From Bordetella parapertussis (lineage in GTDB: Bacteria > Pseudomonadota > Gammaproteobacteria > Burkholderiales > Burkholderiaceae_B), in contig CAMBPA010000001.1 in NCBI GenBank assembly GCA_945869355.1, forward strand, positions 1 to 18,424: a stretch of DNA of 18,424 nt, given 5' to 3'. Below are positions 14,291-18,102 of this stretch, in pieces. The notes beneath the pieces are model-generated. The model did not search any database and had not been told where the DNA came from. It saw only the letters and a program-made list of their open reading frames with translations. Position numbers and translations under genes: made by a program. Position 1 is the stretch's first letter. Every line of letters begins with the position of its first letter.

Positions 14291-14992
14291 ATGCCAGAAA
14301 CAACCGCCTTGACGACAGCTCGCATCGCTCCCAGTATTTTATCTGCGGACTTCGCCCGACTGGGTGAAGAAGTTAGAAATGTTGTCGCCGCCGGCGCCGA
14401 TTGGATCCATTTTGACGTCATGGACAACCATTACGTTCCCAATTTGACGATTGGCCCTATGGTTTGTGAGGCGATTCGCCCCCACGTGGACGTGCCGATT
14501 GACGTGCATCTAATGGTCGAACCGGTCGACAGCCTGATTCCGATGTTTGCCAAAGCAGGCGCCAACGTGATTACGTTTCATCCCGAAGCCTCTCGTCACG
14601 TGGATCGCAGCCTGGCCCTCATCCGCGAGCAGGGCTGTAAAGCAGGGCTCGTATTTAACCCTGCCACGCCGTTGGATTGGCTCGTGCATGTCATGTACAA
14701 GGTCGACATCATTCTGCTGATGTCGGTGAACCCGGGATTTGGCGGTCAAAGCTTTATCCCTGCGACCCTTACAAAACTGCGCGCCGCACGCAAACTGATC
14801 GACGCGCACCGCCAGGCTGGCGGACAAGCCATCGCGCTTGAAGTGGATGGCGGTGTCAAGACGGACAATATCCGAGACATTCGCGCAGCGGGCGCCGATA
14901 CCTTCGTTGCAGGCTCAGCAATTTTTGGGCAGCCCGACTATCAAACCGTGATTAACGCGATGCGCGCCCAGATTGCACTCGCCGATCAATGA
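14291..14992 (+). CDS. rpe: ribulose-phosphate 3-epimerase
   Basis: A 233-aa TIM-barrel enzyme interconverting D-ribulose-5-phosphate and D-xylulose-5-phosphate (pentose phosphate and Calvin pathways). Starts with [19 protein letters not shown]. Metal and catalytic residues are H40 and D42 in [13 protein letters not shown]73 in DVHLMVEP, and the Asp of LEVDGGVK. The phosphate-binding loops [12 protein letters not shown] and [12 protein letters not shown] are present. The frame extends 11 codons upstream to ATG 14258, but I chose ATG 14291 ([15 protein letters not shown]) because it gives the normal family N-terminus. The stop TGA overlaps the gph ATG by 4 bases (ATGA), so the two are translationally coupled. 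Confidence 0.95.
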
Positions 14993-15687
14993 CCTCCGCG
15001 CACACCTGCTCGTCTTTAGCGTTTGACGCCGTTCTGCTCGACCTGGACGGCACCTTGATGGATACGATTCCTGACTTTACGGTGGCGGTTAACGCCATGC
15101 TGGCCGACTTAAAGTTTGCGGCCATCACCCAAGCGGAAATTGCCACCTACATCGGCAAGGGCTCCGACAATCTGATTCGGCGCGTCCTCACGAGTGTTCA
15201 GGCCGGGCAAGCCCCTTCGGCCGAGCTCTTCAAGCAAGCCAAAGTATCTTATACGGCCAACTACCACCGCATCAACGGCGATCAAGCCATCATTTTTGAC
15301 GGCGTACGTCCCGGCCTAGATAGGCTGCAGGCGATGGGTATGCGCATGGCCGTGGTGACCAACAAAAATGCCGAGTTTGCCGTGCCGTTGCTTGAGCGCA
15401 CCGGCTTGGCCAAGTACCTACAGGCCATCGTCTGCGGCGATACGCTGGCCGAGCGCAAACCGCACCCAGCACCGATGCTGCATGCCTGCAAATTACTCAA
15501 AAGCTCACCAAATCGGACCGTTGCAGTGGGGGATTCTGTGAATGATGCCCTCTCCGCCCGCGCCGCAGGCTGCTCTTTCCTAGCGGTGCCCTATGGGTAC
15601 AACGAAGGCCAGAGCGTGCATTCGCTGGATGTCGATGCTATAGTAGATTCGATTGAACATGCAGCCCAGTGGGTTTCAGAACGTTAA
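14989..15687 (+). CDS. gph: phosphoglycolate phosphatase (HAD superfamily)
   Basis: A 232-aa HAD hydrolase that dephosphorylates 2-phosphoglycolate. Motif I is [11 protein letters not shown] (nucleophile D18, acid D20), motif II is VVTNKN, motif III has the lysine in [10 protein letters not shown], and motif IV is [15 protein letters not shown]. The cap domain (about 25-95) contains the Gph-type [14 protein letters not shown]. The start overlaps the rpe stop. The rpe-gph-trpE order is common in betaproteobacteria. Its stop codon lies inside a short dyad just ahead of the trp leader peptide, and a candidate promoter for the trp leader lies within its last 50 bases, so gph and trpE may be only partly co-transcribed. 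Confidence 0.94.
15636..15644 (+). promoter_or_regulatory. candidate extended -10 promoter for the trp leader, inside the end of gph
   Basis: The sequence TG-C-TATAGT (15636-15644) is an extended -10 element. No good -35 hexamer lies 17 bases upstream, which is tolerable for extended -10 promoters. Transcription would start near 15651, about 50 bases before the leader-peptide ATG at 15701. It sits within gph coding sequence. This is a sequence match only. Confidence 0.3.
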
Positions 15688-15700
15688 ATAGAGATTAACG
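15682..15700 (+). promoter_or_regulatory. 6-bp inverted repeat with the trpL ribosome-binding site in its loop
   Basis: CGTTAA (15682-15687) and TTAACG (15695-15700) are perfect inverted repeats around the 7-base loop ATAGAGA. The left arm contains the gph stop TAA, the loop contains the GAGA-type ribosome-binding site of the leader peptide, and the right arm touches the leader ATG at 15701. The hairpin is AT-rich and modest in strength. Confidence 0.4.
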
Positions 15701-15772
15701 ATGACCTTGTCACTACGCACCGCTTCCGTACCTGTCGCCTCTTGGCGCTGGTGGCGTTTCTGTTCCGGGTGA
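15701..15772 (+). CDS. trpL: trp operon leader peptide, 23 aa with Trp-Arg-Trp-Trp
   Basis: A short open frame from ATG 15701 to TGA 15772 encodes 23 residues, too short for most gene finders. The core is SWRWWRF: tryptophan codons TGG at 15743-15745, 15749-15751 and 15752-15754, three of 23 codons for the rarest amino acid. It is preceded by a GAGA ribosome-binding site and followed by the transcription attenuator upstream of trpE. This is the classical arrangement: when charged tRNA-Trp is scarce, the ribosome stalls at the TGG codons and lets the antiterminator form, so trpE is transcribed. The peptide itself probably has no function after translation. Position, Trp content and the downstream terminator make the call strong. 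Confidence 0.92.
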   Translation: MTLSLRTASVPVASWRWWRFCSG

Positions 15773-15832
15773 CGGTGTGTCAAAGTCCGGCTTAATCGCG
15801 ATAAGCGAATAGCCAACAGTACAAACCAAGCC
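15765..15832 (+). promoter_or_regulatory. pause and antiterminator pairings of the trp attenuator
   Basis: Region 2 can be assigned to CCGGCTT (15787-15793). Its GGCTT (15789-15793) pairs with AAGCC (15828-15832), the 5' side of the terminator, giving a 2:3 antiterminator. Region 1 can be CCGG (15765-15768), at the end of the leader ORF, pairing with CCGG (15787-15790), with TGAC (15770-15773) / GTCA (15779-15782) pairing inside it to make a 1:2 hairpin. A ribosome at the stop codon would cover region 1 and crowd region 2; one stalled at the Trp codons would leave region 2 free. The pairings were found by eye and energies not computed. Confidence 0.6.
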
Positions 15833-15858
15833 CGTCCAACCATGGCCGGGCTTTTTTT
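15828..15858 (+). terminator. intrinsic terminator of the trp attenuator (3:4 hairpin)
   Basis: AAGCCCG (15828-15834) pairs perfectly with CGGGCTT (15847-15853). Inside, CCA (15836-15838) pairs with TGG (15843-15845) across a single T/C mismatch, leaving a 4-base loop. Seven T residues (15852-15858) follow, two of them in the stem. This is a strong Rho-independent terminator located 43 bases before the trpE start, where it would stop transcription unless the antiterminator forms. Confidence 0.92.
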
Positions 15859-15901
15859 ATTGCTTAACCCGGTTTGCTAACTGCGAGAACCGCCTAAACA
15901 G

Positions 15902-17440
15902 ATGACTGAACTTGAATTCAAAGCCCTTGCGGCACAAGGCTACAACCGCATTCCGTTGGTGGCCGAGACCTACGCTGACCTCGATACGCCCCTGGGCATT
16001 TATCTGAAGCTTGCGCACAACGGCCCGCAAAACGGCAAAAACTCCTGCTTGCTCGAGTCCGTCGTGGGTGGCGAGCGCTTTGGTCGTTACTCATTCATCG
16101 GTCTACCCGCCCGCAATGTCATTGAGGCTCGCGGCACGACAACCAACGTTTTGCGTGACGATAAAGTCGTGGAGACGTACAACGGCGACCCCCTGCGCTT
16201 TATCTCCGACTACCAGGCACGCTTTAAAGTTGCGTTACGTCCTGGCATGCCAAGGTTTGCGGGTGGGCTAGCCGGATACTTTGGCTATGACGCGGTACGA
16301 CATATCGAACCCAAACTTGGCCCAGCCGCCAAACCGTATCCAGCTGGAATGGGCGAAGGTCCGCCCGATATTTTATTGCTCCAAACCGACGAACTCGTCA
16401 TTGTCGACAACCTAGCCGGCCGGATTTACTTGATGGTCTACGCAGACCCCTCAGAGCCGGAAGCCTATAACCGGGCGCTACAACGTCTGAAAGACTTGCG
16501 CATTAAGTTACGTAAGCCGGTAGAAATTCCCTATAGCCATGCAAGCGTGGTCACGAAAGAACAACGCAGTTTCGCTAAAGCCGACTATCTGGCAGCTGTG
16601 CGTCGCGCCAAAGAATACATCGCTGCAGGCGACTTGATGCAAGTTCAGGTCGGCCAAGTCATCACCAAACCCTTTAGTGACTCACCTCTATCGCTTTACC
16701 GAGCGCTTCGTTCGCTGAACCCATCGCCCTACATGTACTTCTGGAACTTTGGCGATTTTCAAGTGGTGGGAGCATCACCAGAAATTCTGGTGCGTCAGGA
16801 AGCCATCCCCCTACCCGAAGGCGCGCCTGTGGGCCAAGCGCCAGAAACCTGCATCACGATCCGCCCCTTGGCCGGTACACGTAAACGTGGCGGCACACCC
16901 GCAGAAGACGCCGCACTCGCAGCCGAACTGCTGGCCGATCCGAAAGAGCGCGCCGAACACGTGATGTTGATTGATCTCGCGCGTAACGATGTCGGCCGCG
17001 TGGCCAAGATCGGCTCCGTCGAAGTCACCGACACCATGGTGATTGAGCGCTACTCTCATGTGATGCACTTGGTGTCAAACGTGACGGGCACGCTCGAAGC
17101 CGGCATGAGCAATATGGATGTGTTGCGTGCGTCATTCCCAGCGGGAACACTAACCGGCGCACCAAAAGTACGTGCCATGCAAATGATTGACGAGCTCGAA
17201 CCTGTGCGTCGAGGTATCTACGGCGGCGCCGCAGGTTACCTGAGTTACGGCGGTGAAATGGACGTGGCCATCGCTATCCGTACCGGCATCATCAAAGACG
17301 GCATGCTGTACGTGCAAGCTGCAGCGGGTATCGTTGCGGACTCAGATCCAGAAATGGAATGGCTGGAAACCGAAGCAAAGGCCCGCGCAGTGTTGCGCGC
17401 CGCTGAACAAGTACAAAACGGTCTTGACCAACCGTTCTAA
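15902..17440 (+). CDS. trpE: anthranilate synthase component I
   Basis: A 512-aa enzyme that converts chorismate to anthranilate, the first committed step of tryptophan biosynthesis, using ammonia from the TrpG glutaminase. The tryptophan feedback site is seen at LLES (50-53) followed by GERFGRYSFIG. Chorismate-binding domain motifs include NPSPYMYFWNFGDFQVVGAS, GTRKRG (325-330), HVMLIDLARNDVGRV and a Mg2+/chorismate stretch from Y440 (YGGAAGYLSY). It is full length. The start at ATG 15902 has a weak ribosome-binding site. It is preceded by the attenuator and leader peptide, so it is probably controlled by tryptophan supply. trpG lies about 950 bases further on, separated by a gene on the opposite strand. 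Confidence 0.97.
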   Translation: MTELEFKALAAQGYNRIPLVAETYADLDTPLGIYLKLAHNGPQNGKNSCLLESVVGGERFGRYSFIGLPARNVIEARGTTTNVLRDDKVVETYNGDPLRFISDYQARFKVALRPGMPRFAGGLAGYFGYDAVRHIEPKLGPAAKPYPAGMGEGPPDILLLQTDELVIVDNLAGRIYLMVYADPSEPEAYNRALQRLKDLRIKLRKPVEIPYSHASVVTKEQRSFAKADYLAAVRRAKEYIAAGDLMQVQVGQVITKPFSDSPLSLYRALRSLNPSPYMYFWNFGDFQVVGASPEILVRQEAIPLPEGAPVGQAPETCITIRPLAGTRKRGGTPAEDAALAAELLADPKERAEHVMLIDLARNDVGRVAKIGSVEVTDTMVIERYSHVMHLVSNVTGTLEAGMSNMDVLRASFPAGTLTGAPKVRAMQMIDELEPVRRGIYGGAAGYLSYGGEMDVAIAIRTGIIKDGMLYVQAAAGIVADSDPEMEWLETEAKARAVLRAAEQVQNGLDQPF

Positions 17441-17469: not shown

Positions 17470-18102
17470 TCACTTATTCTTGAGCGCTTTAAAATATGCA
17501 ACTACTTGCTTGGACGTCACCAAGTCCGCATACTTCTGCTCCATATCAAACAGATTGGCCCGATGAGGCCCCTCTGCGCGATCCCCTACGCAGTCTGTCA
17601 CGACCATCGGGCGCAAGCCGTAGGCTGATGCGTCAATCGTGCTCGCGCGCACACAACCACTCGTGGTGCAGCCCGTGATGAATAACGTATCTGCGCCTAT
17701 AAAATTAAGCCATGCCGCCAAGTTTGTACCAAAAAAAGCTGACCCGTGGCGTTTGGTAGAGACCCACTCGCCTTTCTTAGGTCGGACACTTTCGACAAAC
17801 TGCGCGTCTTTCGAGTCAGGCGATAACTTCCTAAGCGATGGCACCTTGACCGCAAATGTGCCAATGTCGTCGCCTTGCATTTCTGTTGCAAATCGCACGT
17901 GCGCAACAGGCACTTTCGAGCTACGCGCGATCTTTAGTAATTTTGATGTTTGCTCAATCGCACTCAGCATATTGAAACCGCCAAGCACGTCCGCGTCAGC
18001 AAACCCTACCTGAAAATCGATAATTAATAATGCCGGCTGTTTACCAAAACCAATTTTTTGACCAAATTTCTGTTTTTTATAGACATCGAGATCAGCCATC
18101 AT
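17470..18102 (-). CDS. isochorismatase-superfamily amidohydrolase (N-carbamoylsarcosine amidase / maleamate amidohydrolase-like)
   Basis: A 210-aa cysteine hydrolase. The catalytic triad is readable: D29 in LIIDFQVGF, K117 in STKRHGSAF, and C150 in TGCTTSGCVRAST. The run PMVVTDCVGDRAEGPHRANL resembles N-carbamoylsarcosine amidohydrolase and NicF-type maleamate amidohydrolases more than true isochorismatases; the substrate is not certain. Two ATGs are adjacent at 18102 and 18099. AGGAG lies only three bases before the first, so the second (spacing six) may be used. The stop faces the trpE stop across 29 bases containing two copies of CAGGCTA. It interrupts the usual trpE-trpG neighbourhood, which hints at later insertion. 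Its Lys-rich N-terminus and upstream DNA look more AT-rich than flanking genes. Confidence 0.85.
   Translation of the reverse strand: MMADLDVYKKQKFGQKIGFGKQPALLIIDFQVGFADADVLGGFNMLSAIEQTSKLLKIARSSKVPVAHVRFATEMQGDDIGTFAVKVPSLRKLSPDSKDAQFVESVRPKKGEWVSTKRHGSAFFGTNLAAWLNFIGADTLFITGCTTSGCVRASTIDASAYGLRPMVVTDCVGDRAEGPHRANLFDMEQKYADLVTSKQVVAYFKALKNK

Follow-up and report, generated by a model that had tools for sequence, protein, structure and literature searches.

A predicted ribosome-controlled attenuator upstream of trpE in a relative of Zwartia, its 'on' fold likely locked by a fifth RNA strand

The spacer of 214 bases which separates the stop codon of a gph-like gene (at 15687) from trpE (at 15902) raises the question of whether, and through which alternative RNA folds, it couples the expression of trpE to the supply of tryptophan. 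The window (that is, the whole stretch of DNA analysed, 18,424 nucleotides long) is the entire contig of an incomplete genome (G000, 66% complete). Read against the four-strand scheme of E. coli trpL, the spacer is probably a ribosome-controlled attenuator of trpE, as predicted below, whose 'on' fold is likely to be locked by a further, fifth strand; the direct support comes from conservation, spacing, pairing potential and the covariation of strands 4 and 5, and from these we infer every step in the cell.

The spacer and its leader peptide

The gph-like gene (14989..15687) and trpE (15902..17440), both on the + strand like every other feature described here unless stated otherwise, are taken from the list of open reading frames and, in the case of trpE, also from its TrpE relatives; we take the former to encode a phosphoglycolate phosphatase and the latter component I of anthranilate synthase, the names following in part the initial annotation. 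Among the best 80 of 180 loci, the nearest TrpE relatives are those of L003 (99%) and of Zwartia hollandica (L004, 97%), followed by those of other Zwartia, Sheuella, Achromobacter and Bordetella, which we take together to be Alcaligenaceae (hereafter the family); judged by this sequence similarity, the bacterium of the window is related to Zwartia. L003, a MAG labelled Bordetella parapertussis, carries a near-identical leader; its label is probably wrong, the next match being Z. hollandica at 97%. Comparisons were made on two sets of loci: a first set of 81, composed of the best 80 of the 180 loci and the window, of which 46 were kept at no more than 93% identity, and a hold-out composed of 60 further genomes of the family plus L112 and L113 (62 in all), from which 12 sequences more than 85% alike to the first set were dropped, leaving 50.

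The leader peptide is encoded by an open reading frame of 23 codons (MTLSLRTASVPVASWRWWRFCSG; 15701..15772, with its TGA stop at 15770), which starts 13 bases past the gph stop and is preceded by a putative Shine-Dalgarno sequence, GAGA (15691..15694). Its codons TGG CGC TGG TGG (15743..15754) encode Trp-Arg-Trp-Trp, as seen in the translation and in the alignment, the TGG codons lying at 15743, 15749 and 15752. A reading frame of this length, with three TGG within four codons, is what the initial annotation had described, and translation bears it out; none of 2000 dinucleotide shuffles of the 214-base spacer yielded a short open reading frame with three Trp in four codons. The Trp codons, whose conservation had been left to be checked, are also a stable trait of the relatives: a leader with a Trp cluster lies upstream of trpE in all the 81 loci of the first set, and in 46 of the 50 hold-out sequences a leader with the cluster (W.W or W.WW) begins at an ATG or a GTG. 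The other four fall into two kinds, namely L161 and L198, where the cluster is present and the script did not find the usual start, and L166 and L184 (TrpE identity 66 and 64%), where no leader with a Trp cluster was found and the open reading frames listed are spurious. Conservation in the alignment concerns the Trp cluster and the RNA strands; the N-terminal half of the peptide is not conserved. A search of plasmids with the spacer gave no match.

A small hairpin surrounds the first Trp codon (15733..15750, with arms 15733-15739 and 15744-15750 and one mismatch in the window). It covaries among the relatives, with 96.3% of the alignment cells paired and 11 cells in which both sides had changed (3.1 in shuffles, 0 of 500 of which reached the observed value). 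The fold of the whole leader has a z-score of -1.98 relative to shuffled sequences (8/200 equal or better), and a protector pairing between strands 1 and 2 appears in the minimum-energy folds of the window and of some of the 14 sequences folded; in models free of a ribosome, strands 2 and 3 still paired before strand 4 was made in 17 of 46 leaders.

Terminator and antiterminator

The sequence at 15828..15858 is predicted to be of the intrinsic-terminator type, termination itself being equally a prediction. Sequence and fold reveal an interrupted stem (15828-15853), consisting of 7 base pairs, a mismatch and 3 further pairs, and a T7 run (15852-15858); its 5' arm (strand 3, 15828..15837) contains GCCCG (15830-15834), and its 3' arm (strand 4, 15844..15850, assigned from fold and alignment) is GGCCGGG. 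The 7+3-bp hairpin with T7 had been put forward in the initial annotation and agrees with the fold; a hairpin ahead of a T6 run matching the stability of the real one (-14.8 kcal/mol) occurred in 0 of 1000 dinucleotide shuffles of the spacer. A simple consensus scan for terminators did not report it on the + strand. Covariation of the stem, proposed as a check, is present but slight in the alignment, four rows of which are shifted by one position in strand 3. By the author's pattern, a U-tract terminator was detected in 42 of the 50 hold-out sequences, the eight in which the pattern found none being L165, L166, L184, L192, L195, L201, L205 and L210.

Concerning the antiterminator, the earlier proposal stands only in part. 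It paired GGCTT (15789-15793) with AAGCC (15828-15832), and these letters do exist, but the 5' strand is not conserved: in the alignment, GGCT in the window is replaced elsewhere by GGCC, AGTC, TTTT and others, so that this candidate was rejected as strand 2. About 20 nt upstream of it lies the strand that is conserved as antiterminator, CGGGT (15766..15770). This strand overlaps the stop codon of the leader, whose TGA begins at 15770, and is able to form a helix with GCCCG (15830-15834) within the terminator's 5' arm; alignment, models and a count of spacings all point to it. In 90 of 92 leaders, its GGG begins 15 nt past the first base of the codon for the final Trp of the cluster, independently of the position of the stop codon; at any other offset from 6 to 27 it is found in at most 3 of the 92. 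Over 46 sequences, 96.5% of the cells of the 2:3 core are paired (11-57% in slid registers); the core shows no covariation because it is nearly invariant. The remark that region 2 and the terminator arm share only five to six base pairs applies in part to the window, where a 5-bp core and a short distal helix give a duplex of -12.3 kcal/mol; in many of its relatives, the core reaches 8 bp. The distal extension was considered as covarying support and rejected, since its signal in the first set (0/3000) was lost in the hold-out, where no covariation was found (819/3000). Given the complete alignment, RNAalifold instead joined strands 2 and 4; this was read as an artefact, both strands being rich in CCGG.

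The spacing acquires its meaning from the size of the ribosome, which, with a codon in its A site, covers about 12 further bases: halted at the last Trp codon of the cluster it would leave strand 2 free, and at the stop codon it would cover it. A fold constrained by such a footprint had been suggested as a check, and was modelled with strand 3 complete and strand 4 still to be transcribed, the ribosome standing either at the last Trp codon of the cluster or at the stop. In the former position, the 2:3 probability exceeded 0.5 in 41 of 46 leaders of the first set and in 39 of 41 of the hold-out (80/87), after exclusion of seven hold-out leaders in which the pattern detected no terminator; at the stop, it did so in none of the 87. 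The window itself gave 1.00 with the ribosome at Trp versus 0.00 at the stop, and another definition of the last Trp codon gave 2:3 in 40 of the 46. In the models, then, 2:3 is exclusive with 3:4, free upon stalling and blocked at the stop. Once strand 4 is present, equilibrium models favour 3:4 in most leaders, and for this reason the choice of partner by strand 3 has to be kinetic.

Taken together, the claim of a ribosome-mediated tryptophan attenuation of trpE survives with its Trp clusters (81/81), its spacing (90/92) and its behaviour in silico, but with an antiterminator other than the one originally given. With ample charged tRNA-Trp, translation would proceed to the stop codon, where the ribosome would cover strand 2 (15766-15770) and so leave strands 3 and 4 to form the terminator. 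If tryptophan runs short, the ribosome would instead halt at the Trp codons, with its footprint ending just before strand 2; left free, strand 2 would capture strand 3 ahead of the synthesis of strand 4, allowing the polymerase to read on. Strand 4 would then be caught by a strand located downstream of the U-tract (15868-15874), giving a 2:3 plus 4:5 fold in the read-through mRNA; by occupying strand 5, the 4:5 helix may also open the start region of trpE.

Strand 5 and the competing explanations

Strand 5 (CCCGGTT, 15868..15874) lies in the window 9 bases past the U-tract and is complementary to strand 4, pairing with GGCCGGG (15844-15850); it is present in most of the relatives and covaries there with strand 4. 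In the window alone, the 4:5 pairing is borderline (p = 0.040 and 0.063 in two tests against chance). In the alignment, 92.1% of the cells of the 4:5 helix are paired, against 24-62% in slid registers, and 16 cells are changed on both sides, against a mean of 0.7 in shuffles, none of 500 of which scored as high; eight further pair types were counted, a number reached by 164 of the 500 shuffles. In the first set, 4:5 outperforms shuffled downstream sequence at p < 0.05 in 34 of 44 leaders (two of the 46 being too short for this test), and among 16 other terminator-like sites in the same loci, used as a control, two did so, one of them inside a trp leader reading frame. The idea of strand 5 was formed on the first set and then tested on the hold-out, where, with the eight of the 50 sequences lacking a terminator by the pattern left out, 35 of 42 reached p < 0.05 and none of 3000 swaps was as good. 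The strand recurs in 21 of 24 hold-out genera (20 without L112 and L113), some of which may overlap with those of the first set. With the hold-out thinned to 85% identity, 28 of 35 sequences keep p < 0.05; with strict thinning on top of this (no more than 80% alike to the first set, L112 and L113 removed), 21 of 27 do. The relatedness of the species inflates all these tests, an effect which the hold-out, the count of genera and the thinning reduce but do not remove.

In both sets together, an uninterrupted 4:5 run of at least 6 pairs is present in 82 of 88 leaders. Among close relatives, L017 and L045 have a spacer too short to contain strand 5, and in L009, L010, L013 and L014 a longer stretch separates strand 5 from trpE, so that nature already provides variants for comparison with the window. 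L162 (g32), whose genome measures about 0.8 Mb, carries a Trp leader (MSHNFLKKTHDALWRWWRTPPG) and a terminator, with no clear strand 5.

The first explanation to be weighed against a functional fifth strand, and one that keeps some, though a lesser, claim on the data, is that the spacer is a simple attenuator with four strands, as in E. coli, in which strand 5 is incidental or is maintained on other grounds, for instance for the stability of the mRNA or as an inverted repeat at the DNA level. All the classical parts are in place; E. coli trpL works without such a strand, none being found there by the same test (p = 0.91); and among the six of 88 leaders lacking the uninterrupted 4:5 run are L017 and L040, whose spacers are too short for it and whose leaders otherwise look normal. 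Moreover, 4:5 rarely wins in folds at equilibrium: in the read-through RNA of the window 3:4 has a probability of 1.00, with the ribosome at the last Trp codon the means over 46 leaders are 0.87 for 3:4, 0.10 for 2:3 and 0.04 for 4:5, and in most models of the full read-through RNA the combination of 2:3 and 4:5 loses to 3:4. What this explanation accounts for less well is that strands 5 and 4 covary at corresponding positions, in the hold-out too, with more double changes than are found in the terminator stem itself, and that in a swap test on 83 leaders strand 5 proved to be matched to strand 4 (0/2000) and not to the similar strand 2 (1850/2000). As to the DNA-level alternative, the 4:5 statistics would be the same for an RNA helix and for an inverted repeat, but the pairs formed 3 bases before the GGG of the terminator (G-C 43, A-U 24, G-U 14, unpaired 1, in a register chosen by best pairing, which favours pairs) include frequent G-U pairs, which fits RNA. 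The covariation thus supports the ability of a strand of the terminator to pair, in the read-through RNA, with sequence downstream of the terminator, as a pairing potential.

Within the preferred reading, in which strand 5 acts on strand 4, its role is constrained by the order of synthesis: it is unlikely to decide termination, since it is made only after the polymerase has cleared the U-tract. A clamp on strand 4 would rather withdraw it from strand 3 in the read-through transcript and keep the antiterminated fold, 3:4 being the more stable at equilibrium in the models, and for the same reason such a clamp needs kinetic trapping.

A comparably tentative explanation assigns to strand 5 a second gate: in the absence of 4:5, it would block the ribosome-binding and start region of trpE, so that transcripts leaking through the terminator would stay silent. 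Folding points to GCGAGAACCG (15883..15892) as a possible alternative partner near the trpE start. With strand 5 occupied, opening the start region becomes cheaper by 2.85 kcal/mol on average, versus 1.17 with strand 5 shuffled, and the difference reaches p < 0.05 in 17 of 84 leaders; in the first set, the pairing of strand 5 with the start region was equalled by none of 3000 swaps and was significant in 11 of 41 leaders. In the hold-out, however, the signal shrank to 6 of 41 leaders at p < 0.05, with 31 of 3000 swaps as good, and the window alone gives p = 0.40 for the pairing and 0.17 for the opening of the start (2.8 versus 1.2). The pairing of strand 5 with the ribosome-binding site of trpE, promising in the first set, was consequently demoted to a rival reading. 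Between the U-tract and the start, 49 of 87 leaders (4.4 expected) contain the motif CNGUC, which is complementary to the AUGACNG at which trpE begins, a count confounded with the 4:5 overlap and with relatedness; its second letter follows in part the wobble base of codon 2. The evidence thus weakly suggests, from sequence and models, that an occupied strand 5 may open the start region of trpE. Extended to most of the family, this would describe a five-strand Trp attenuator acting as a single switch on both transcription and translation: 2:3 would form upon stalling and 4:5 upon read-through, the latter securing the antiterminated fold and at the same time opening the trpE start, and leaked transcripts would remain silent, in hosts mostly without TrpR; such a description is tentative.

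Neighbouring genes, other families and known systems

Downstream of trpE, and convergent to it, the window carries on the - strand a gene which, from its sequence, we take to be isochorismatase-like (17470-18102). In L003, its counterpart, read from the opposite strand, separates trpE from trpGDC; trpG and trpD directly follow trpE in L004, and trpGDC frames follow it in L005 and L010, where no such gene is listed. In the lineage of the window, the attenuator may control trpE alone. Within the incomplete genome G000, trpD could not be placed, the sole match to Pfam Glycos_transf_3 being weak and on another contig.

Outside the family, a Trp-rich leader reading frame occurs shortly before trpE in 11 of 24 genomes drawn from the order's other families (L114, L117, L118, L121, L123, L125, L126, L128, L129, L130 and L133). 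At ten of these a loose finder detected no terminator, and at the remaining one (L130/G058) a weak one. In the folds of 10 of the 11, the trpE start is costlier to open, by more than 1 kcal/mol, when the leader is free than when a ribosome occupies the cluster's last Trp codon; these folds had no null control, a ribosome placed at the stop has a similar effect, and the start taken for L121 is not ATG. Possible translational attenuation is suggested by these models for the other families. A further explanation for the window, in favour of which these other families can be cited, is that the leader peptide works solely by way of translation or Rho, the terminator being weak or idle; four hold-out sequences from two genera of the family (L165, L192, L195 and L205; g36 and g67), which keep a WRWW leader and have no U-tract terminator by the pattern, point the same way. 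It is nevertheless improbable for the window, whose terminator carries a U-tract, as do those of 42 of the 50 hold-out sequences, and whose strand 2 stands at a fixed spacing.

Least probable of all is that the terminated leader RNA, or the peptide, also acts in trans as rnTrpL and peTrpL are reported to do in Sinorhizobium meliloti (PMC7298713): such a link could be useful with an opposite-strand gene intervening between trpE and trpGDC (in L003) or following trpE (in the window), but the N-terminal half of the peptide is unconserved, unlike the Trp cluster and the RNA strands.

The attenuator favoured here resembles E. coli trpL (RF00513) in having a leader peptide with Trp codons and a 3:4 intrinsic terminator upstream of trpE; it differs from it in that strand 2 lies in the last codons and the stop of the leader, in that the Trp cluster is W-R-W-W, and in the fifth strand pairing with the 3' arm of the terminator, which was not found in E. 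coli trpL. No Rfam family reaches its cut-off at the window; in a relaxed search the lowest E-value was that of RF00513, Trp_leader (15743-15859, E 0.012, 23.6 bits versus a cut-off of 41). The same model exceeded its cut-off in 0 of 151 genomes of the family, in an Infernal scan whose stricter filters may have lost weak matches at trpE; weaker matches were returned in 20 genomes, 19 of which have none at trpE, the twentieth (G112) being without a TrpE match.

Two systems described elsewhere offer partial parallels. In vmlR of Bacillus subtilis, an upstream reading frame senses the stalling of the ribosome and governs an intrinsic terminator; within the read-through RNA, residues are proposed to pair so as to open a hairpin at the downstream start site (PMC9226507). 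The stalling reading frame, the intrinsic terminator and the logic of a pairing in the read-through RNA, to which the second gate considered above would correspond, appear to be shared, but vmlR senses antibiotics and the window tryptophan, and the start-site gate of the window is weakly supported. In S. meliloti, whose trp genes form three operons, that of trpE(G) is attenuated by a Trp leader, and functions in trans have been reported for both the RNA and the peptide (PMC7298713); on that description the attenuation is like that of the window, the bacterium belonging to another class.

The core of the system is thus a known mechanism, present in a family in which the Rfam model does not call it. 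Among the matches listed from the open-licence literature, none deals with a trp leader of this family. From scans with Rfam models, amino-acid attenuators have been considered possibly of gammaproteobacterial origin, with few transfers (PMC3766115); as nearly every sampled member of this betaproteobacterial family has the attenuator and Rfam calls it in none of 151 genomes, that view may rest partly on the sensitivity of the model. For the family itself, the control of tryptophan synthesis may depend largely on this device: TrpR-like proteins were detected in eight of the 151 family genomes at E 0.001 (three above the Pfam cut-off, all partial), and with TrpR so rare attenuation may be the main Trp-responsive control; in hosts mostly without TrpR by Pfam, a second gate against leaks would make sense. 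Strand 5, which could act only after the polymerase has passed the terminator, represents a testable addition to the textbook four-strand scheme.
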